DNA of 64,000 nucleotides. Origin: Laccaria trichodermophora. Lineage: Eukaryota > Basidiomycota > Agaricomycetes > Agaricales > Hydnangiaceae. Each line of letters begins with the position of its first letter. Positions within the stretch are counted from its first letter, which is position 1. Shown one piece after another: positions 4,385 to 29,173 of the stretch. The notes beneath the pieces are model-generated. The model ran no database searches. It had not been told where the DNA came from and saw only the letters and a list, made by a program, of their open reading frames with translations. A program made the position numbers and the translations under genes. The stretch spans positions 558,001 through 622,000 of the forward strand of contig JACTVC010000017.1 in assembly GCA_018417955.1 (NCBI GenBank), given 5' to 3'.

Positions 4385-5105
4385 GTTTTTTCAAAGAGGC
4401 ACTGCAAGACCAATGTATTTTTTTCACCACTGGCACAATGTATTATTTTTTAAATTGGCACCGCCGGAGCAATGTATTTTTTTTAGGTGGCACTGCCAGC
4501 ACAATGTATTACTTTTTAAAATGGCACTGCCAGAGCAATGTATTCTTTTTAAAATGGCACCGCTGGCACAATGTATTCTTCTTTAAAATGGCACTGCCAG
4601 CACAATGTATTACTTTTTAAAATGGCACCGCCGGGGCAATGTATTACTTTTCGAAATGGCACCGCCGGAGCAATGTATTTTTTTACACCACCAGCACAAT
4701 GTATTACTTTTTAAAATGGCACTGCTGGCACAATGTATTATTTTTTTAAATGGCACCGCCGGGGCAATGTATTACTTTTCGAAATGGCACCGCCGGAGCA
4801 ATGTATTTTTTTAAAATGGCACCACCAGCACAATGTATTAATTTTTAAAATGGCACCGCTGGCACAATGTATTATTTTTTTAAATGGCACCGCCGGGGCA
4901 ATGTATTACTTTTCGAAATGGCACTGCCGGAGTAATGTTTTTTTTTTTTTTTCAAAAATGGCACCGCCGGGGCAATCTATTTCTCTTAAAAATGGCACTG
5001 CCGGGGCAATTGTTTTTTTATTAAAATGGCACCAAGGCAATGTATTCTTCTTTAAAACACCACCACCAGAGCATAAATGGCACCACCAGAGCAATATGCT
5101 CTGCC
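4385..5105. repeat. Tandem array, unit about 31-33 bp
   Basis: Roughly twenty imperfect copies of a unit with the core ATGGCACCGCCGGGGCAATG followed by a T-rich spacer (TATTACTTTT or similar). Copies differ mainly at the CCGCCGG core (also CTGCCAG, CCGCTGG, CCACCAG). Several overlapping frames stay open because of the repeats; those translations are repeat artefacts rather than proteins. Confidence 0.9.
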
Positions 5106-5139: not shown

Positions 5140-5625
5140 TTTTTGGAGGGTATATTGCAGGAGGTATATTGCGGGAGGTATATTGCGGGAGGTATATTGC
5201 AGGAGGTATATTGCGGGAGGTATATTGTGGGAGGTATATTGCAGGAGGTATATTGCGGGAGGTATATTGCGAAGGGTATATTGCAGCTGCAGAGGGTATA
5301 TTGCAGGGGGTATATTGCAGTATATTGCAGCTGTGGAGGGTATATTGCGGGAGGTATATTGTGGGAGGGAGGTATATTGTGGGAGGTATATTGCGGGAGG
5401 TATATTGCAGGAGGTATATTGCAGGAGGTATATTGCAGGAGGTATATTGTGGGAGGGAGGTATATTGTGGGAGGTATATTGCGGGAGGTATATTGCAGGA
5501 GGTATATTGCAGGAGGTATATTGCAGGAGGTATATTGCGGGAGGTATATTGCAGAGGGTAGATTGCGGCTGCAGAGGGTATATTGCGGGAGGTATATTGC
5601 AGAGGGTATATTGCAGCTGCAGTGG
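5140..5625. repeat. Tandem array, unit about 14 bp
   Basis: About thirty copies of GGAGGTATATTGCG with variants (GCAG, GTGG, GAAG in place of GCGG), broken by occasional GCTGCAG insertions near 5283, 5331, 5569 and 5613. All six frames are largely open through the array, giving long spurious translations of the GGILQEVYC type on both strands. Confidence 0.92.
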
Positions 5626-6689: not shown

Positions 6690-7965
6690 GTGCTTTGCTC
6701 ATAAGAAAATGACACCACTGGCAGAGCAATATTTGCAGGGGTATTGTGTACTTAGATATGTTTTTGGTGTAAATGTGTCAAACACATTCTAACAGGCTGT
6801 TATAAATTTTCAATATAAAATGCTCCGACGGTGTATCATAAAGAAAATGACACCACCGGCGAAGCAATATTTGCGGAGGTATTGTGTACTTAAATATGTT
6901 TTTGGTGTAAACATGTCAAAAATATTCTAACATGCTATTATAAATTTTCAATATAAAAGCAGAGGCGATTTGCGGTGGCTGGTCCGGTGGTGTATAATAA
7001 AAAAATGACACCGGCGGCGAAGCAATATTTGCGGAGGTATTGTGTACTTAAATATCTTTTTAGTTGTAAAGATGTAAATATTCTAACAGGCTATTATAAG
7101 TTTTCAATATAAACGCAGAGGCGACTTGCAGTGGCTGGTCCAGCGGCGTATCATTAAAAAAAATGACACCGCCGGCGAAGCAATATTTGCGGTGGCATGG
7201 TGTACTTAAATATGTTTTTAATATGAACATGTCAAAAATATTTTAACATGCAATTATAAATTTTCAATATAAAAGCGGAGGCGATTTGCGGTGGCTGGCC
7301 CGGCGGTGTATTATAAAAAATGACACCGCCGGCGAAGCAATATTTGCGGTGGCATGGTGTACTTAAATATGTTTTTAATATGAACATGTCAAAAATATTT
7401 TAACATGCAATTATAAATTTTCAATATAAAAGCGGAGGCGATTTGCGGTGGCTGGCCCGGCGGTGTATCATAAAATGACACCGCCGGCGAAGCAATATTT
7501 GCAGTGGCATGGTGTACTTAAATATGTTTTTAGTATAAACATGTCAAAAATATTCTAACAGGCTATTATAAATTTTCAATATAAAAGCGGAGGCGATTTG
7601 CAGTGGCTGGCCCGGCGGCGTATCATAAAAAATGACACCGCCGGCAGGGCAATATTTGTGGAGGTATCATGTACTTGAATATGTTTTTAGTATAAACATG
7701 TCAAAAGTATTCTAACACACTATTATAAATTTTCAATATAAATGCAGAGGTGATTTGTGGTGGCTGGCCCAGCAGCATATCATAAGAAATGACACCGCCG
7801 GTGGGGCAATATTTGTGGAGGTATTGTGTATTTAGATATGTTTTCAGTGTAAATGTATCAAACTTCATTATAATTTTTTTTCTATGTTTGCGGAGTCAAT
7901 GTGTGGTGGTTGGTCCGGCGGTGTACCATAAAAAAATTATATAACCAGTGGAGCAATATTTGCGG
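6690..7965. repeat. Satellite-like array, about nine copies of about 155 bp
   Basis: Copies begin near 6709, 6847, 7005, 7163, 7321, 7478, 7633, 7788 and 7933. Each carries ATGACACCGCCGGCGAAGC followed by AATATTTGCGG, then GTACTTAAATATGTTTTTA, then a CATGTCAAAAATATT block, ATTATAAATTTTCAATATAA and GCGGTGGCTGGCCCGG. The outer copies are more diverged than the inner ones, as expected if the array grows by unequal exchange in its middle. No coding potential. Confidence 0.9.
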
Positions 7966-10790
7966 AGGAATTGCCTTGCTGGTGTACTTAAATACTTTTG
8001 CAGATTAAATGTGTGAAGCTTCTTCCAACAGATCATTCCAATATGTGTCATTTTTGCAGAGGCAATGTGTGGTGCTTAGTCCAGTGGAGTGTTTCAGAAG
8101 CAATGTGCAGTGCTTAGTCTGGCAGAGTGATTCCACTCAAATTGTAGCAAACAGCATACATAGGTTGATAATATTATGCATGATTGATATAAGCCAGACT
8201 TGTAATTCTAAGTATTCAACTGGATGATGGCCGCCGGCGTGTCACCAACACCCTGGCGGAGGGCAGCCCCGCACTGGGTTATGACATTCAAGGTACACCC
8301 AGCCGCTCCAGTGTTATGGGACATTGTTGCTGACGGCCCACACATAGTTACTGGTGGATTGTTCAGGGTCCGGCCGCCCCTTTGACAATGGGGTCTGGTA
8401 ATCAAACCGGCTGTCTGGCTAGCCCCTTACCATTTGATGGATTGTCAGGGCAGGGTGGCCCATTACTAATGAGCCAAGGTGACTAACTTAACTGAAGACA
8501 CCACCACCAGCATCACTATCAGCACCCCTCCTCCTTCCATTCGTCTCCATCGACCCCTACCGGAAACTATCATCGAGGAAGACGTTCGACCACGGCGAAT
8601 GGGAAGTGTCAAGATAAATATCGGTACCTGTTCCTTGGCGCCCGATGTTCGAACATTATCATGCGGGTGGGGTAGTATCTCTATCTTCTGATGGCGCCTT
8701 TGAGGGCGGTTGTTAGGATGGTTTTGAGGAGGTACTGAGGTTGGTTTTGGCTCTCATTCCTCGTCGTAGTATTCGAACCCGCCCATATCGTCCCCCTTGC
8801 ACACACGCACTTGCATTTTCAGTCTTTCCTAGCCATTACTTGACTTGGATGCTGTCGTCAGTCCCTTTCGACCCTCTCACTCTGGCCCTCCTTTTCAACG
8901 TCGTCCACGCCCATCACCTCTTTCCACGCATTCAAAGCCAGCCTTACTTTCCCTTCAGCAAGCATATCCTGTCCATTTCTCCTTGGGATACAGATTCAAA
9001 TTCAACCACGTATAAACCACGACTGGTACCAAGTACTGCTGAACCGTTCATGTTGATCATTATATTCTAGTCAAACGTTCCTTTCTCTGCCTAACTAGCA
9101 TGGCTGCCGTTTTCCGATAAATTCTCCTACCAATTCCGAAGAACAGGTCCATGACAATCCGTCCCCAGCTCATATTCTCTGCCATCATTCCCAGATAACC
9201 GGCCCCTCCCCGTTACCGCCCCAGACAATGGGGCCTTACTATCGCCATTTACGCCTACCACCCCGCTACCACTACCTTTCCCCTTCCCTGATACCATCCC
9301 CCTTGCTTGCTGATATCCCAATCGATCGTCCGCTCGTCCTTGTAATGTGTGCTTGATTGATAATATCGCATCCCGTCCATTCTACGCCTGCATAATCTCG
9401 CATGACGTCCATTCCACGCCTGCATACCGTGTCTCATTCATTTCCTACCCCGTATCACAGTCGTTTCCCACCCCACGATCCCGCATGCCCTGTACCCTGT
9501 TTCTGTCATCTACCATCATTGTAACGCGTACACGCACGTCTATTCTTTTTCTGCTCTCTCTCTTTTTTCTTTCCTGCTCTTCCCCTTTCTTTCTTTGTTT
9601 ACGTTCTTGTATTTCATATCGATATGAAATTTTTCATATCGACGTCAGTCTTGTAACAGACAAGCTATCGCGCTCTCTCATCCCCTGGCCTGGACAAGGG
9701 ACGGTGATAGATAAATCTTTAAGACTTCAACAACTCCTTGGCTTCGCTAGCACTAGCGCTATCGCCAAGAAACTGCAACGATCCACGCACCATGTATCCC
9801 CCCGAGATTCATGTGGTATTGCTGTCAGGGGGTTCCTAGGTCCTGATGATGATGATCACTTCAACTCAATTCTAATTTCAAGTCGATTGTAATTTACTTG
9901 CACTCGGAAATGACGAGTCGATATACGCAATGGCGCCTGTGGTATGAAATGGGCAATGATCGAGACAAACCCTCACAGCTTGCATGTTGAATACCCAATC
10001 AATACCTCTGGCATCGCAGAAAAAAGGTATAACACCTTGGTACTACGTGACCATGAGGGGCTCTTGAGGAGACGCTCAGCTTCATCATCGGTAAACTATA
10101 TTCAATACCAATTCTCCGCCCCACACTAAGAACTTGTGAAAAAGCCCAATGATCGCCCTTTTATGTAGGTTTCTCGGTCTTGCAATGATTGATGAGAAAA
10201 TGGTGATTCCTTTGGTATCTATATCTATATTGAAAGCCCTTGGAGGGGTCGCTTCCATTAATTATCTTAGATTTCCACCCTAAAACAACGTTAACAAATG
10301 TCGGACTTTCTTATTTTAGCTTACAACCATTCCAATTGCTGGTGGCCGTCTCAATTGCTTGAAATGGAAGTGTGTGTGGTTCAAATCGGGTTGGAACCAG
10401 GGTTGAGTCCGGATTCAACCGGGCTCCCCATACTAATATAGCCATCAATAAATTTACTGATCGACCGATGAAATGTTTATAAAGAAAAGTGCATCAGTCA
10501 AGGATTGAACCAAAAACCTCGGGCTCGTGGCCTATGTGCACAAAGACTACAAATTTGTAGTGCGACATAACCATTCGAATACACGACCTATTAGAAAACT
10601 TCCAAGGCCGCTCATATATCCAATCTCTCACCCAAACTAAAACAAGAAAATCTTCCAGTGCTGTAACAGAGGGGAAGTTTTTTCCTGTAATTAATGCATA
10701 GTATGTGGGGCTCTTTTCAATGGAATACAAATTTTTATGAAATCTACTGTACTTCGTTCAAGCCATTGGAACACCGTTGCAATGTGATTG
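7966..10790. other. Long stretch with no supported gene
   Basis: Open frames here (for example 9347-9892 plus, 8741-9070 plus) lack domain resemblance, biased codon use or splice-supported extension, and I do not call them. A perfect 20-bp palindrome lies at 9611-9630. A minus-strand B-box-like word (GGTTCAATCC, near 10500) next to an A-box-like stretch suggests a decayed tRNA or tRNA-derived SINE fragment near 10480-10620. Confidence 0.4.
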
Positions 10791-11109
10791 TGTGAAGCGT
10801 TCACTCTGAACTTCTCACATAGCTGAAGCCAAGAGGGAAGGAGGAGGCAAGAATGGGTGGATCTGGGATCAACACCCATAAGTGAGCAATGAGCAGTTAC
10901 AAGATACTCAGCTGGCCCAACATGATTATGCATACTGTAGGAAGTACAGTCATACAAAGCACTACATGTAGTGCAAGAGGATGGCAAGACTGCTGACAAG
11001 GTGGTGGTTCAAGACAAAAGATCAATATATTATGTAAGATATCCAAATCTAGCTATATACCACTGTTTGACTATGGCCTCTGGGCATTCCCTTCCAATCC
11101 TATATCACA
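10791..11109 (-). repeat. LTR (3' LTR in element orientation)
   Basis: First of the two 319-bp copies. The termini TGTGA and TCACA are inverted repeats of each other. It differs from the partner copy at only a few positions (for example TGTGAAGCG against TGTGGAGCG). Confidence 0.9.
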
Positions 11110-12310: not shown

Positions 12311-12689
12311 GTTGAGGTGTCTCCCCAGCCCATAAGAGTCCTCCAATCAAGTCTTAACACCCCAAATAAAGGGGAGATCCTGAGGTAGCCAAAAATGTGT
12401 TTGAGCATAGCGTAGTGATTTCTGGCCCGTTCCTGGGGATCAAATACCCGTTCGAAAGCTACGAACGACGCCTTTCCAACGGTATAATTCGCGTATCGTG
12501 ACGAGCCGTGGTTGTCGAGATAGAGAGGTAATACCCAGAAACTGCAGTTCTGGAGTAAATGCATACTGCAGACCAGGCTGTTGTCCGTTATCGACGTGAA
12601 TAGGTGCGTCGGAAAGGTACGATTCAGGCGTTTCAAACGGGCTATAGAGCGTCCGATGCGAGCAGGTTATGACAATAGGAATGGGGAAA

Positions 12690-13330
12690 TGGTTGTTGAA
12701 GAGATGGCACTGTAATGCAAGAACCGCTTGTCCGTTCGATGCGTATGAGAGCTTCCCAGAAGCGCATTGTCCGTAGCTTCAAAACGAACCAAAGAACGAA
12801 AGGGGCGACGAAGATCTCGCCGAGAACGGACGAAATATGTTCATCTTGGTCATACCAGGCTGAACTAGGCGAAGCGCAGCCAATAGGTGACCGTTTGGCG
12901 AGTTCATGGTGTCCAAAGAAAGGTGTGGATCAGGGCTTCCCAACGCAAAAAAGACGAGAGCGATACGACCGTCGGTTGGTGAGATATGACATGAACAAGT
13001 CACATGCAAATGGTTGTTGGAGGGATGGTGCTGTGACACGAGAACCGCTTGTCCGTTTGACGCGTATGAGGGCTCCCCAGAAGCGCATTGACCGTGGCTT
13101 CAAAACGAGCCAAAGAACAAAATGAACGACGAGGATCTCGCCGAGAACGGACGAGATATGTTCATTTTGGTCATACCAGGCTGAAGTAGGTGAAGCGCAG
13201 CCAATACGCGACCGTTTGGCGAGTTCAGGGGGTCCAAAGAAAGGTATGAACGAGGGCTTCCAAGCGCAAAAGAGACGAGAGCAATCGGGGCGTCGGTTGG
13301 CGAGATATGAGGTGAATATGTCCCATTTTG
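12690..13330. repeat. Two direct repeats of about 320 bp inside the LTR element
   Basis: GAACCGCTTGTCCGTT occurs at about 12720 and 13040, and the following 290 bp align with scattered substitutions, giving a period of 320 bp. Open frames across them on both strands repeat the same motifs and have no recognisable product. Confidence 0.8.
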
Positions 13331-14045
13331 ATGTCCCATCAACCCCATCCAACCCAAAACCACTCCAAACCCTTCTAACCATTCAGAAACCAAGAAGAGC
13401 CATTCCAGGGAGTTCATAGAGAAGTAAGGAGGATGAGAACACTCATTCCTCAAGCAAGAAAACAGCAAGGATTGGGAGAGAAGCATAGTAGGGCATAGCA
13501 CATAATTTCCAGAGCAGCAGACTGAACTGGAGGGATGTCAATGAACATCTGGCTGTTCTTGAGAGGCCTAGATGCTAAAAGACAAGGGAGATGGTTGAGG
13601 AACAGGTGGAGTCTGAGAGACAGTGAAGCAGCGCAAAGCAACAGGCAACACTGGTTGCAGGTGACCTCCTCACCAAGTCAATGGCCGCGTAGTCGCGAAA
13701 TCCAGACATAGGTGAGAGGAACTCTCCTCACAGTAGACTTCAGGCCGCGTAGTCACGAAATCCCAAAGCCCAGCTGCTCAGAGTCAGCGCAGCACCTCAA
13801 TCGAACAAACCTCAACCTGCTGTGCAAGCACAAGCTAAAGTCAATGGTTCATCCAACTGAAGGATGGATGAGCCCTTTCACATGAAGTAGTAAGCCCGCC
13901 GCGAAGAGCGCGAGCAGCAGCTACCATCCATGCTAAGGTTCCTCCTGTGATGAGCTGGCGCATTCCCACAACTCTCCAGCTCTCCCTCTACCAAGAAATG
14001 CAGACTTCAACCATGCTTTGGTGAAGTCCGCGGTGCCCCCACCAT

Positions 14046-14364
14046 TGTGGAGCGTTCACTCTGAACTTCTCGCATAGCTGAAGCCAAGAGGGAAGGAGGA
14101 GGCAAGAATGGGTGGATCTGGGATCAACACCCATAAGTGAGCAATGAGCAGTTACAAGATACTCAGCTGGCCCAACATGATTATGCATACTGTAGGAAGT
14201 ACAGTCATACCAAGCACTACATGTAGTGCAAGAGGATGGCAAGACTGCTGACAAGGTGGTGGTTCAAGACAAAAGATCAATATATTATGTAAGATATCCA
14301 AATCTAGCTATATACCACTGTTTGACTATGGCCTCTGGGCATTCCCTTCCAATCCTATATCACA
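14046..14364 (-). repeat. LTR (5' LTR in element orientation)
   Basis: Second 319-bp copy. The putative primer-binding site is adjacent at 14044-14027 on the minus strand, which sets the element's orientation. Confidence 0.9.
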
Positions 14365-15090: not shown

Positions 15091-18000
15091 TCAAAAATAG
15101 CAGACCGTAGTTGATGACCGTGAAATGCGTGGAGGCCTAAGCTTTAGCCTTTCTCTGTCAATTTGTTGTTGCTTTCTCTGCAATAGGAAGAAATGAATTC
15201 AAAAACAGGTTGAGTAGCTCTGAAGACTTACCCACTAGTTAAAAAATTAAAATCAAAATCAACATGTGATGAAGAAAATCAATGATGTACATCCTGAATC
15301 AGCATAGAAACATTGCTTCAGTAGTTGCTTCACCAGATGGAAAACAGTAATTGCTTACTCGCTATACATTGTTAGCACTGATGAGAGATTTTTAACATAA
15401 CATAAAACTCACAATCTGAACACCATTCACATAAAGAGCTACCATTAGAAATTATGTACCAAAAACAGACAAAGGAATCTTGCATTCTAATAATGAAAAA
15501 AGAAATAAGTGACATGGCTTATTGTGAGAAGAACTGGATAACCAACCTCCTGAAATAGATGATTTTGTTGGCTTAGGTATTTAATAAAGAAAGAGAGAGC
15601 ATGCCAGCTGCAGAAATTAGCCATGGGTACTATTCAAAAATAAGAAAGTGCCTACTGTCTGAGAAAAGAAAGAAAAGTTAGCCAAAAGATAAATGATGCA
15701 ACCTGGTTTCTCACATTCTGCATTATGGTTCAATGCTTGGTGAGACAGAAGATGAGCATGGAACATACAGGCTACACAGAGAATAAGTTTTATATTGTGA
15801 ATCTGTTTTGTGTTTTGTCTACTTACTTTTGGAGAACTGGTGCCCTATGGTGGCAAATTCCACTCTTAGGCAAATAATATTTCAGCATCTTGGATACTCA
15901 CAATCTGCAGGGTGACCAATCAGCAAATATAGGTGGCACCAATTATTTACTTACACCCTGGAGTATGCTGCAGGATAAGAGGGCAGATATATCAATGTCA
16001 AGTAAAATAACTTGCATACTGCAATGAATTTCTCAAACTAGGCTCAGAGGGTAAATAAAAGCTACTCACAGCCTAACAGTAACATTCACTTGAAGTTAAA
16101 TAAATGCATGTTGTCCATTGAAAGTTACTCACCCCCTGGCAGTACAATTGAGATGAAAAACCCAATGAGCACTACCCAATAAAGCAGATAGGTTGTGACT
16201 AACATACTAGTTAGATAAATGTTAGCATACAAAGTTCCATTGTTACAGTAAATTTACTTACACCCTGATGAATCATGGTTCTAATCTGAGAATTGACAAG
16301 TAAAAATGTTGCAGAGAAGATACACACAGCCTATATAGTATTTCATCAGCTTAATGTATTCTGCAAATAGGATACCTACATGGGATGTTTTGGAACTGAA
16401 GAGATTTCAGTTCAGAAAGTATCATCAGGGACTCAAACCTGCTCTTACAAATTTTCAACATTCTAAAAACATTGACCATAGAATTCAGCATTCAACATTT
16501 ATCCACCTGCTTTAAAAAAAATTCACCTTCTGATGTTGCACATCAAAGGTCAGATTGGGTAAAACAAGACAAAGAGAAGACTAACATTCTGGTTGCAAAA
16601 CATCCACAAGAATGGCCAACATAGCCAAAATTATCACTCACCCACTAATAAAATGAATTTAGTAAGCAGAGAAGGAGAAATAGCACTCACTTTCTTGTGG
16701 TTGTAATAAATTTGAATGAACTCTTTGAAGTTCAAATTCTAAATCACTCACCACCTAAAAACAAGATAATAAAATGTGTTTCTAGTATCCAAATTGCTTA
16801 CAATCTACATTCTCAATGACATGTTGTTGATTTTCAAAAAATAAAAGACTTACATCCTGCAAAACATGTTCAAACATTATTATTTTGAAACATCCATTTA
16901 CTCACTTTCTGTTGAGGAAATTTTGTCAATGTCTGGATATGCAATAATAATGAGCATACTTTAAGTTTCCGAATGAGCCCTGACATTTTCTGGGTCAAAT
17001 TTTGAAAACATGCCACATTCTGGATGTCTTTTTAATTACAAAATAAACTTCAGAGCTCAAAAATGAACCCACCTCCATGCTCATAGTTAGTAGCTCCATA
17101 TCTTCTAGTATCTTCTTTGTGTTGTCAACCTTGAAGATTAAAATATTAGTCCAAATAATAAATGAAGATTTTGAAGAGTCAAGCAAGATGTCAATGTTTT
17201 CCTCTAGAACATTGCTTGCGTGCATTAACTCCGTGATCTCTTCCAATCGTCCTGATTTACTCATTTTGACACATTTGAGGAGATGGTCAAACCAGTGGAC
17301 AGAAGCATACTGTTGTGCTTCTGCATGTTGTACCCACCCTAGTGCAGTACTCCGTACGGAGCGGGATGACTCCTGATCCCCTTCCGAGAGTTGTGCAGTA
17401 ATTTCCAGACAACTTGCGGCAAGGGAGAAATGAGTTCTTAAACCATCAAGATGATAGCTTCTTGAATCTCGTGGAGACTTAAGATATTCCCAAAGAGATT
17501 CGCAAATCGGTTGTATGGGTTTCTTATCGTCAGCCGGAATAGACAGGAGGGCGTTGATTTGGAAAAGGGAGGGAAGGGGGTCGATCCGGCGTGATGTGAA
17601 AACACGGCGTAAAGCGGTTAAGGACAATGGGGAATTTAGATACGTGACAGTTCCTAGAACCTCTTTGAAATCGGACGAGACTCCCGCCCTGACAATATGG
17701 CTTAGTACCGCCTCGAAAAAATCATAGAGGCGATCATTTGAGCCTCTGAGCAAACCAGAAAGCCTATTGCTCATATCCCTGTGGTCAAGATAATGGAGGA
17801 TAGTTTGGGCAAAATGGAAGGAACCCTTGGACAAATCGACCAGGCACCCAAGCTGCTCGTCCGACGACATACTTCTTTGACGAGCAAAATTACTCGTGGA
17901 ACTCGTCCGCCGAATCTCTTTTAGCCGGTCTTGGACGAATTTCCGGATATCCTTCGTCGTTTCCACGGCATTGATATCTTGAATATTTACTTCCTTTACA

Positions 18001-18861
18001 AATCGACTAAATTCCTTTGACTCCCGAGCTTCCTCGAAGTGGTCTGCAATTCGGCCCGTAAGAAGGATGCGGACATTTGCGAGAGCTTTGGGGGTGCTCC
18101 CGCCGGCGGAAGGTATGTCGACGAGCATTTTGACGAAGTCTCTCATCGCCCTCTCATCACTGCACCGATCTATACCGTCGATGACTATGACCAGCCGGGT
18201 TTTAGACTGCATGATATTCGTCCGTGACTTGGTTGGTTTTTCCTCCGAGATTGTCGATAGGACCCCCAAAAGAAGCTTTCTGAACTGATAGTCCTGCGAA
18301 GAATCTTGAAATATACTCGGCTCGTGTCGGTAAATCCGTTCAACATGTGGTATCGCATGGTAATTTGAGATGCACATGGTGTAGACGAGAGAGGGGATTA
18401 AATGTTCAATCCCACTTCTCTTATTCCAGTCGAAGAAAAAGTTTGCGACCAGCGTATTTTGCTCAGAGCACTTCTTCGCAAGCGTTTGGGCGATAGAAGT
18501 CTTCCCCGAGCCCATTGGGCCTGTGAGCCAGCAGATGGGCGTATTCGACCTGATCCAGTCGTCGAGCTCTTTGAGAAGCTTAGACCGTGTGCCAGGGTGA
18601 TAGGATGGGATGTCGACGCGATTGAAGCTGTAGTTCACCGGCGGACGGAGTGCGTTAAGAAGGTCGGATGCTGGCCACCAGGATGAGTGACATGGAAGAG
18701 GAATGGAGAGAGGCAAGCGAAAGAATCTTACAAAGTCGTCCCGCTGCAGGTGGGTGATGATGAATATGAGTCTCAGTATGATTCCCGCCCACAGTGGTAA
18801 TTCGGTTGTTTCGTAAGCTGAGATCTCTCGGATTTGTGAACGACGAGAATTGGGAGGTCAT
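15091..18861 (-). CDS. NACHT-domain NTPase followed by an array of predicted single-codon exons
   Basis: Exon 1 is 18861-18732 and exon 2 is 18670-17073; together they are 576 codons in frame. The N-terminus carries the VGGNHTETHIHHH-type sequence seen at the head of agaricomycete NACHT proteins. Exon 2 has Walker A GPMGSGKTS (near 18520-18490) and Walker B LVIVIDGIDRC (near 18195-18165). Exon 2 reads into GTGGGT at 17072. It could run unspliced to a stop at 16995, giving FKI at the end. Downstream, however, 29 units of the form AG-NNN-GT follow between 17019 and 15232, and then a terminal open stretch 15177-15091 (28 codons plus stop). Exon 2 ends in phase 0 and all units are three bases, so frame is kept throughout, and none of the 29 triplets is a stop. 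Spliced in full, the protein would have 633 residues. Role: probable STAND-type signalling NTPase (family inference). Confidence 0.72.
15232..17019 (-). other. Array of about 29 acceptor-NNN-donor units (candidate 3-nt exons)
   Basis: Minus-strand triplets, by lowest coordinate: 17017 AAT, 16906 AAA, 16854 GAT, 16802 ATT, 16752 GTG, 16691 AAA, 16642 TGG, 16586 AAT, 16527 AAG, 16460 AAT, 16328 GCT, 16262 GGT, 16204 TAT, 16133 GGG, 16070 GCT, 16016 TAT, 15955 GGT, 15902 ATT, 15837 AAA, 15769 CCT, 15715 AAT, 15656 ACA, 15605 CTG, 15547 GAG, 15484 AAT, 15413 ATT, 15359 CGA, 15291 GAT, 15232 TGG. All but 15837 directly follow AG, and all directly precede GT or, for 16016, 15605 and 15484, GC. Spacers are mostly 47-70 nt, the usual intron size here, and differ from each other in sequence. 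Three or four further degenerate units lie between 16440 and 16280. Read in order the triplets give protein-like text, including KWNKNAGYGAYG and KPNTLENIRDW. Confidence 0.75.
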
Positions 18862-27548: not shown

Positions 27549-29173
27549 ATGCCTTACACCAACCATGTCTTCACCGCATTTGCCTTCCTTGGCTTCCTCT
27601 GTTGCGCGATCCCTTTTCCGTGGCACTTGGAAGGTAAATACTCAATCGTCTCTTTCGCGAGCTTAGCTCATAACATGGCCTATCAGCTTGGAACACGGGA
27701 ACCTGCCTCTATATGGCGTGGACTGGGTTGGCTTGCCTCAACCAATTCATTAATTCCATTGTATGGAACAATAATGCAATTAACTGGGCACCCGTCTGGT
27801 GTGACATCTCATCAAGGTTCATCGTCGGCACCGCGGTCGCTATCCCAGCTGCATCCCTCTGCATCAACCGCCGCCTCTATCACATTGCCTCTGTGAAGTC
27901 TGTGACAATCACCAAGGCTGAGAAGCGCCGTCAGATTATGGTTGACCTGGCTATTGGACTGGGTCTCCCAGTCATGGAGATGGTTCTTCGTACGTGATGC
28001 TTCTCTCCTCCCTTTCCTTCTTTGCTTACCGGTCATTAGAATATATTCCTCAAGGCCACCGATTCAATATCTTTGAAGAGGTTGGTTGCTATCCCTTCAC
28101 CTACAACACACCCGTGGCTTTCGCTCTGGTGTCTGCCCCTCCCATTGCTATCGGCATCGTCTCCGCGACCTATTCCATCATGAGCATCCGTGCTTTCAAC
28201 AAAAGCCGTGCTCAGTTCAACGAGTTCCTCTCCAACTCCGGCCACAGCAACATCAACAACAGTCGCTACATCCGCCTCATGTGTCTTTCCGCCGCTGAGC
28301 TCTTCTGCACCATCCCATTCGGCTGCTACGCCATCTACCTAAACGCTCACAATGGTGCCATGCGTCCCTGGAAAGGTTGGGCTGACACACACATCTACTT
28401 CTCCCGCGTCGGCCAGATTCCATCCGTTCTCTGGCGCGCGAACAAGCGGACTGAAGTCTCTCTCGAGCTAACCCGCTGGCTCATCGTCTTCTGCGCCTTC
28501 ATCTTCTTCGCCTTCTTCGGCTTCGCTGACGAGGCCAAGAAAAACTACCGTTCTGGACTCTCGTCGGTTGCCAAGAAGGTCGGCATCAACAGCGAGACTC
28601 TCTTTGGCAGCTCTGGTCTTAGCAGCTCAAATGGGTATGTAATCCTCTTTCCTGACCCCGGCGTAGTAACTCACCCGCTGTCAACTCCTCAGAGCCAAGT
28701 CAAACTTCAACACTTCCAAAACCGGTTCAAAAGGAAAAGTCCGCCCAGTCCTCCCCGTTTTCGTGCACACCGAGATGCTCCGCCGCCACGACTCAATGGA
28801 TTCAAGCCTCTCCGTCTCTTTCCAAGACGCTGGCGGCGCTCTCAGCGCAACTACTATCGATGAGAAAGAGAAAGGACTCTTCTCTCCCGTCGTTTCATAC
28901 GGCGAACTCACTCTCACCGACGTGGGCGGTACGCTGGGGGATCTAAGCTCCGATCAGCTCTCGTCGCCACCGTCCTCTGGCTCCTCATCAGCTTCTTCGC
29001 GTTCGAGCATCGTTGAGCAACCTGACGCACCTGTGATGACGGACGTCCCAGACATTGAAATCTCTTCCGTCCGGGGAATGTCAATCAGCGAACGACCAAT
29101 ATCACTGGCGGTACCTGAAGCAGCATACAATGGCTCCCCTCGTCATCCTTTCGATGGCCCATCCGCTGTATAA
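27549..29173 (+). CDS. STE3-type pheromone receptor (receptor 2)
   Basis: Four exons, 27549-27633, 27687-27989, 28040-28634 and 28693-29173, sum to 1464 nt (487 residues). The start is the ATG opening MPYTNHVFTAFAFLGFL, followed by PWHLEAWNTGTC, WAPVWCDIS, QGHRFNIFEEVGCYPF, PWKGWADTH and the TM7 stretch FCAFIFFAFFGFADEAKKNY. A Ser-rich cytoplasmic tail of about 150 residues ends DGPSAV. STE3 class receptors recognise the CaaX pheromones of compatible B mating types. It belongs with receptors 3 and 6 by sequence. A pheromone gene of its own was not found within 3 kb. Confidence 0.92.

Follow-up and report, generated by a model that had tools for sequence, protein, structure and literature searches.

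Results

Layout of the window gene

The window, a 64,000-nucleotide stretch of the Laccaria trichodermophora genome (C9:558001-622000; the genome searched comprises 59.0 Mb on 77 contigs), carries on its minus strand a 620-amino-acid open frame (16995-18857). A Pfam search of this frame identified NPHP3_N (PF24883, 1.1e-19) and NACHT (PF05729, 1.1e-7), both passing the cut-off. WD, ANK and TPR repeats were not among the 22 Pfam families reported for it, and no N-terminal effector domain was reported at E 0.1 in the frame, whose first exon is provisional. C-terminal repeats are common, though not universal, in this class of fungal NLR; in the window gene their place is occupied by the peptide of an array of predicted single-codon exons (Table 1). 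The best named relative is the Laccaria bicolor model P0012, with 81% over 24% of the query.

Table 1 Predicted exons of the window gene, in order of translation; L051 is a paralogue and P0012 an L. bicolor protein model (see text).
Feature	Position	Strand	Remark
Possible first exon with ATG	18861-18859	-	5' border of long exon provisional
Long exon, NACHT/NPHP3_N (STAND, NLR-type)	17073..18857	-	last codon ends 17073; donor GTGGGT 17072
Predicted 10-codon exon KMSGLIRKLK	16960..16989	-	by reading; L051 one base different (KMSELIRKLK)
Predicted 9-codon exon TLTKFPQQK	16906..16932	-	L051 and P0012 read TLTNFPQQ
Array, 26 predicted single-codon exons	15232..16856	-	6-codon exon between 16th and 17th
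Predicted exon GAT (D)	16854..16856	-	
Predicted exon ATT (I)	16802..16804	-	
Predicted exon GTG (V)	16752..16754	-	
Predicted exon AAA (K)	16691..16693	-	
Predicted exon TGG (W)	16642..16644	-	
Predicted exon AAT (N)	16586..16588	-	
Predicted exon AAG (K)	16527..16529	-	donor weak
Predicted exon AAT (N)	16460..16462	-	donor weak
Predicted exon GCT (A)	16328..16330	-	L051 = ACT
Predicted exon GGT (G)	16262..16264	-	
Predicted exon TAT (Y)	16204..16206	-	
Predicted exon GGG (G)	16133..16135	-	
Predicted exon GCT (A)	16070..16072	-	
Predicted exon TAT (Y)	16016..16018	-	GC donor
Predicted exon GGT (G)	15955..15957	-	
Predicted exon ATT (I)	15902..15904	-	
Predicted 6-codon exon GGCACCAGTTCTCCAAAA (GTSSPK)	15827..15844	-	by reading, L051, P0012
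Predicted exon CCT (P)	15769..15771	-	
Predicted exon AAT (N)	15715..15717	-	
Predicted exon ACA (T)	15656..15658	-	
Predicted exon CTG (L)	15605..15607	-	GC donor
Predicted exon GAG (E)	15547..15549	-	
Predicted exon AAT (N)	15484..15486	-	GC donor
Predicted exon ATT (I)	15413..15415	-	
Predicted exon CGA (R)	15359..15361	-	L051 = GGA
Predicted exon GAT (D)	15291..15293	-	
Predicted exon TGG (W)	15232..15234	-	
Final exon, 28 codons + TGA (RKQQQIDRERLKLRPPRISRSSTTVCYF)	15091..15177	-	in-frame 3-base gap vs L051

The predicted composite peptide of the array reads DIVKWNKNAGYGAYGI-GTSSPK-PNTLENIRDW. An earlier sequence-only reading had described about 29 units; the array is real, and the count slightly high against a working set of 26 single-codon exons plus one exon of six codons. 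Reading of the sequence confirms the donor at 17072, the last acceptor and the final 28-codon exon, whose stop is at 15091. The working set was selected manually, guided by the paralogue, and automatic chains recover 16-17 of the 26. The triplet AAA (16906-16908) probably belongs to the predicted 9-codon exon, as its last codon, and is less likely to be a single-codon exon. Introns within the array span 46-68 nt, except for two gaps, one of 129 nt and one of 130 nt; the latter contains the 6-codon exon. Donors are weak or GC at about seven of the array's exons, and the simple branch-point consensus YTRAY occurs in only 12 of 26 window introns and in 167 of 290 units elsewhere.

Also in the window are two sets of tandem repeats in surroundings that look gene-poor: one has a period of about 157 bp and 6.5 copies (6699-7853), the other periods of 34/68/134/262 bp and a CACCGCCGG motif (4411-5033). 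A near-duplicate repeat of 321 bp lies at 12440-13382, and open frames (TTTLSAVLPSSCTTCSA...) recur at a distance of about 3.2 kb, at 10691-11008 and 13988-14263.

Splice-signal statistics

Between 16905 and 15231 the minus strand contains 13 GTRAGT donors, of which 12 are preceded by AG-NNN, the same counts as in the sequence-only reading; the 13th, at 15826, closes the 6-codon exon. Across the rest of the minus strand there are 30 GTRAGT in about 62 kb, or 0.9 per 1.8 kb, in line with the earlier estimate of about one by chance. When the spacer k in AG-N{k}-GTRAG was varied from 0 to 12 over 1.7 kb of the minus strand, k=3 gave 15 sites, k=10 two and all other values none. The best automatic chain of 3-nt exons in the array has 17 units (score 113.3). 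By comparison, 200 first-order Markov shuffles reached no more than 3 units and a score of 17.3, and the 52 other window tiles no more than 7 units and 28.6. Twelve NACHT loci that lack an array gave chains of at most 3 units on either strand, and the genome-wide search for consecutive pairs returned 760 matches, compared with 49 for the reversed pattern. The spacing spectrum, shuffles and tiles rule out a chance origin of the window array. A simple tandem repeat is likewise ruled out by TRF, which returned 0 rows for it.

The sole candidate for a second array in the window, the 7-unit tile chain, proved to be a minisatellite of 14 bp (GGTATATTGCAGGA) at 5149-5616, which imitates seven units of acceptor, codon and donor. 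Isolated perfect YAG-NNN-GTRAGT sites occur beyond the array at 28680 and 47202 (minus strand) and 23285 (plus strand); they could be lone 3-nt exons or chance occurrences.

Codon conservation in an old pair

A paralogue (L051), at C9:536-540 kb and 20 kb beyond the window, shares 66% identity in the NACHT part and has a 516-aa open long exon together with the entire array. The two genes differ at 2/81 codon bases (GCT/ACT and CGA/GGA) and 0/108 AG/GT bases, compared with 211/1446 (14.6%) in the intron interior, where there are also 38 gap columns (Fisher P 7.6e-4). Any AG-NNN-G(T/C) matches 36 partly overlapping sites in the window array, and 33 of these are kept at the same L051 columns. Because the codons are kept and the introns are not, we read this pair as evidence of purifying selection on a predicted spliced product. 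The window gene would be an old copy of the array design, in which the introns are no longer alike and the codons are conserved.

The L. bicolor model P0012 reads TLTNFPQQ-E-D-I-V-W-N, an intron read-through, LQG-V-GTSSPK-P and later IGDW. It joins D-I-V, W-N, G-V-GTSSPK-P and I-G-D-W in the order of the codons of the window gene and L051. Since some introns are read through, this model is a gene-finder's guess and not proof of splicing.

Arrays across the NACHT family

The genome contains 59 NACHT matches, of which 30 were cut out as loci. Seventeen of the 30, including those of the window gene and L051, carry 14-18 YAG-NNN-GTRDG units on the gene's strand; a cut-off locus (L046) has 6 and the other 12 have 0-3. 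The sequence-only reading had noted that no triplet of the window array is a stop, and this extends to 0/290 units in 18 sequences; at the rate seen among triplets of the adjoining introns (6.5% stops), the expected number is 18.9 (the units are paralogues and not independent). Unit number and codon order differ between close NACHT paralogues. The composite peptides of the paralogues can be aligned (TENENYKKWTEK, TENENFNKWASK, TENKNFKKWIKK, TEDENFEKWIKK, TENENLKKWTKK and, more distantly, SNESFGKWIKK). Patterns in common are TENENFxKWxKK and VIN(L/V)QSISFK(E/K), the latter with T/N-I-L beyond the array. Six genes were extended by joining L056-L061 to their loci. The end of the array reads K-VINLQSISFK(E/K)-T-I-L-K-W-R in three of the six (N30, N34, N35), with variants in N31, N36 and N28.

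A homologue encoding the stretch in one continuous exon, put forward earlier as strong support for the model, was not present among 29 protein matches to the N30 composite, the nearest being P0012 and the L. bicolor GTPase model P0052 described below. By motif check none of the 29 has the array peptide, and 25 run on into the first intron, including P0025 from L. amethystina and also P0032. Public models from L. amethystina terminate at the first donor or close to it. In Laccaria, standard annotation thereby loses the predicted variable ends of array-bearing receptors: the public models viewed end at that donor. The L. bicolor RNA-seq method of 2010 reportedly detects only exons of at least 9 bp.

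Arrays in other genes

When the matches listed (of 168) were grouped by place, units of the GTPase type lay at no fewer than 16 places (L053, L054, L062, L063, L064 and 11 further), between the GTPase domain and the C-terminal part. In the P-loop GTPase gene L053, six introns are followed by 37 predicted single-codon exons (RWDYRRYGQGHYHRENYNAANDDDDYYDAHTNDNKID), through which the frame stays open into the GTPase exon VTNIFNHTDW. Sister arrays read ANNVVVNNRH and DNFWDWRGGRNHIP, and the strings of L063 and L064 are rich in A/D/Y; two chains among these sisters include a few longer, doubtful exons. Of 1438 GTPase homologues we read 15, taken from the best 120; the named sources of both NACHT and GTPase relatives are mainly L. 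bicolor and L. amethystina, for the GTPase within those best 120 of 1438. P0052 has a D/F/A/Y-rich stretch (DYLKRDFDADFDSDFDADAYDFDAAKAKDNQAREANEAFFFNNADRIPEY) exactly at the place of the GTPase array, and the Pisolithus homologue P0109 has little there. A similar low-complexity stretch occurs at this place in LACBIDRAFT_325699 (L. bicolor).

A third kind of gene lies on the minus strand at L055:806-6850 (C6:740.8-746.9 kb). It opens with MASQT, followed by about 68 predicted single-codon exons. Its array is a 71-bp tandem repeat (62 copies by TRF), the predicted peptide (KKERRREERPPLLERLRRRL...) is charged, helix-like and rich in R, E, L, D and K, and no Pfam family was found in the conventional exon that follows. 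DNA searches with units of the three families returned, among the matches listed, only arrays of the same kind. A weak match (70%) to the L055 unit at C29:230092-230304 is perhaps another array.

Hypervariable codons between near-identical introns

Between their flanks, the six extended NACHT genes consist of tandem units of a 66-nt intron plus one codon. The middle introns of the sister arrays measure 66-68 nt and are nearly identical in the youngest; in the N36 extension, TRF counts 35 copies of a 69-bp unit. The earlier statement that the spacers form no simple tandem repeat thus holds for the window gene and fails for these younger arrays. Predicted middle peptides read T-Y-G-F-W-Q in N34, AAWNNGNNANNWAAYWKYAWNNGFQ in N35 and TFFLGSRRFLDWRIEDRRFGRIEDFGRLRIEDWSS in N36. 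In N35, 24 of 25 compared units have at most 2 differences from the consensus over 66 intron bases, and between these near-identical introns stand codons such as GCA, TGG, AAT, GGG, TAT and AAG.

The ratio of codon to intron distance, calculated from units of modal length with one N35 unit of unrelated intron dropped, was 30.9 in N35, 12.4 in N36, 6.4 in N28, 3.7 in N31, 5.3 in L053 and 8.5 in L055. Units whose introns differ at no more than 2 bases but whose codons differ were compared in pairs, which are not independent; the change was nonsynonymous in 215/215 (N35), 119/119 (N36), 20/21 (N28), 8/8 (L053) and 194/202 (L055). In the flanks of four recent paralogues, codon change was 30/234 compared with 205/4091 for introns; summed over all pairs, 25 codon changes were nonsynonymous and 4 synonymous. 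Because stops are absent and changes nearly all nonsynonymous, selection appears to act on the peptide.

Linkage of codon and intron haplotype was found in N36 (P 0.001), which points to the copying of whole units and blocks; the other five gave no clear linkage (P 0.084-0.81). In these five of six arrays, where introns are homogenised and codons not linked to them, recombination within introns appears to be frequent; not every array allows unit copying to be told from reshuffling. The codon alphabet (17 codons for 14 amino acids) was no different from chance (P 0.10). Triplet choice is family-specific: arginine is AGG in NACHT arrays (8/8), CGA (3) or CGT (1) in GTPase arrays and AGA in L055 (19/19), and glycine (GGG vs GGT/GGC) and alanine (GCA vs GCT/GCC) follow suit. 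This suggests that letters are inherited and re-used inside a family.

Discussion

Interpretation and mechanism

We put at roughly 80% the probability that the array region codes for the C-terminal part of an NLR-type NACHT protein, predicted from sequence to be split over about 26 single-codon exons separated by short introns. The sequence-only reading had arrived at such a model. It is borne out by the exact 3-nt spacing, the lack of stops, the conservation of codons and splice sites against changing introns, codon strings shared between paralogues, and reading frames that run on, still open, into a conventional exon at either end. The L. bicolor models P0012 and P0052 also speak for it. Against it stand the YTRAY consensus in only 12 of 26 window introns, several weak window donors, the recovery of no more than 16-17 of the 26 units by automatic chains, and the 29 protein matches to the N30 composite, which do not contain the array peptide. 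The unit is AG-codon-GT, always in one phase; in old arrays the codons are kept and the introns drift, and in young arrays the introns are kept and the codons change. The same layout in dozens of genes likely serves to add, drop and swap single amino acids in a variable part.

Splicing would join the array peptide one amino acid at a time. Recognised by intron definition, the 45-70-nt introns would be removed by the spliceosome, probably in succession, because the 3-base gap between acceptor and donor is too tight for simultaneous binding; dozens of consecutive 3-nt exons that need error-free joining make a hard test for splicing. As the unit is a whole codon, its gain, loss, exchange or skipping would be frame-neutral. 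Near-identical introns may act as homology handles, so that unequal recombination within and between arrays changes how many codons there are and in what order. New peptides would be favoured by selection on the protein, and codons would therefore outpace introns in divergence. In the resulting sensor protein the C-terminal recognition segment would be rewritten residue by residue; by analogy with other fungal NLRs, the array segment would be the sensing part of the window protein. We infer a codon-by-codon device for varying a sensor peptide through frame-safe intron recombination and diversifying selection.

More tentatively, and with a little less than even odds, we propose that more than 30 arrays in at least three gene families hold a sensor peptide as separate codons between interchangeable introns, with recombination resetting the letters. 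If true, this would be a frame-proof generator of single-residue diversity in which selection drives the letters at up to 31 times the intron rate. We know of no cassette system as fine-grained as this resetting of single codons. As the variable part is one codon and the homogenised part non-coding, each array brings a neutral standard of its own, the change in the intron next to that in the codon, and the strength of selection on a sensor is measurable directly, residue by residue.

The arrays might instead be mainly an alternative-splicing device in the style of the truffle nank genes, with single-codon exons variably included or skipped to give many peptides per individual. We regard this as possible, if improbable on balance; it is compatible with the favoured model and not exclusive of it. 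Every unit is a whole codon in one phase, which makes any skip frame-safe, and the 3-bp microexons of Tuber NACHT-ANK genes are reported to vary in this way (as cited in PMC4986451 and PMC10197012). On the other hand, the DNA bears no sign that skipping is used, and the conserved codon strings of old arrays (2/81) fit constant inclusion.

Targeted mutagenesis of the codon between its splice sites, with variation that is mutational and not selected, seems to us unlikely. It would account for a codon distance of up to 30.9 times that of introns and for N35 codons changed at all three bases beside unchanged introns. Yet pairs with near-identical introns differ almost wholly by nonsynonymous changes in N35, N36, N28 and L053, there are no stops, and one triplet per amino acid is kept in each family. 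This nonsynonymous excess, together with the absent stops and the single triplets, argues for selection on the amino acid. That we know of no codon-mutating enzyme of such a kind in fungi also counts against it, and we prefer recombination with diversifying selection.

We give very little credence to an introner-like invasion, in which an exon, once continuous, was broken up codon by codon by the insertion of copies of a single intron. The near-identity of young introns (N35, 24/25 units within 2/66 of the consensus) and a homologue without an array (P0109) would fit it. The units are tandem with a fixed period, however, and their number and codon order differ between close paralogues; to our knowledge, transposing introns do not insert exactly every three bases in one phase, which also tells against it. 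Least tenable is a relic, removed as one large intron or never translated with its signals left over, as public L. amethystina models ending at or near the first donor might suggest: 0/108 AG/GT and 2/81 codon bases changed against 14.6% of intron bases, no stops occur in 290 units, and frames are open on both sides.

Comparison with known systems

Fungal NLRs are required to diversify fast. The known route is the shuffling of coding repeats, whereas here the shuffled and homogenised part is non-coding. Schistosome micro-exon genes resemble the arrays in their short exons, from 3 bp up, which are thought to vary proteins, but they mix exons of 3-81 bp with introns of up to 5 kbp (PMC10526429), where here nearly all array exons are 3 nt and introns 45-70 nt. 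Nor do short exons make up most of the coding sequence of the window gene, the array being a C-terminal segment after a long exon. Exons of aphid bicycle genes are reportedly larger and not single codons, unlike those of the arrays. The likeness there lies in many microexons and rapid evolution (PMC9168663). Fungal introner-like elements share near-identical introns in many copies (PMC4457414), but they spread among unrelated genes, while here the copies lie head-to-tail inside one gene. Among the matches listed, the near-identical introns were not dispersed among unrelated genes.

Also comparable are NLR repeat domains of high internal conservation (Podospora NWD; WD/ANK/TPR repeats), which according to PMC4986451 are recombination-homogenised tandem units, variable in number and C-terminal to NACHT, with diversifying selection at a few positions. 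There the repeat that is conserved encodes protein; here the homogenised part is the intron and the variable part one codon.

Our literature search found no report of such arrays in Laccaria or any basidiomycete, nor of homogenised introns, hypervariable codons or array genes outside the NLRs (GTPase). Three-base microexons in truffle NACHT-ANK genes are said to go back to Iotti et al. 2012. The sequence-only reading knew of no described gene with a run of consecutive 3-nt exons, and in this it was mistaken: as cited in PMC4986451 and PMC10197012, the NACHT-ANK (nank) genes of Tuber melanosporum owe variation to alternative splicing of microexons of codon size (3 bp), and such runs in a fungal NLR are therefore already known. 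As far as those papers describe nank, both systems combine runs of 3-bp exons, in the window gene predicted from sequence downstream of NACHT, with an expanded NACHT (NLR-type) family, an ectomycorrhizal fungus and receptor diversification. In contrast to nank as described there, the window host is a basidiomycete, the window gene has no ankyrin domain, and arrays occur beyond the NACHT setting, in a GTPase family and the charged-helix gene L055. Because it lacks ankyrin repeats, we file the window gene as a variant of the nank design and not as a nank gene. Set against those descriptions of Tuber, introns homogenised within arrays and hypervariable codons distinguish the Laccaria system, and the evolutionary mechanism that they imply would be new.
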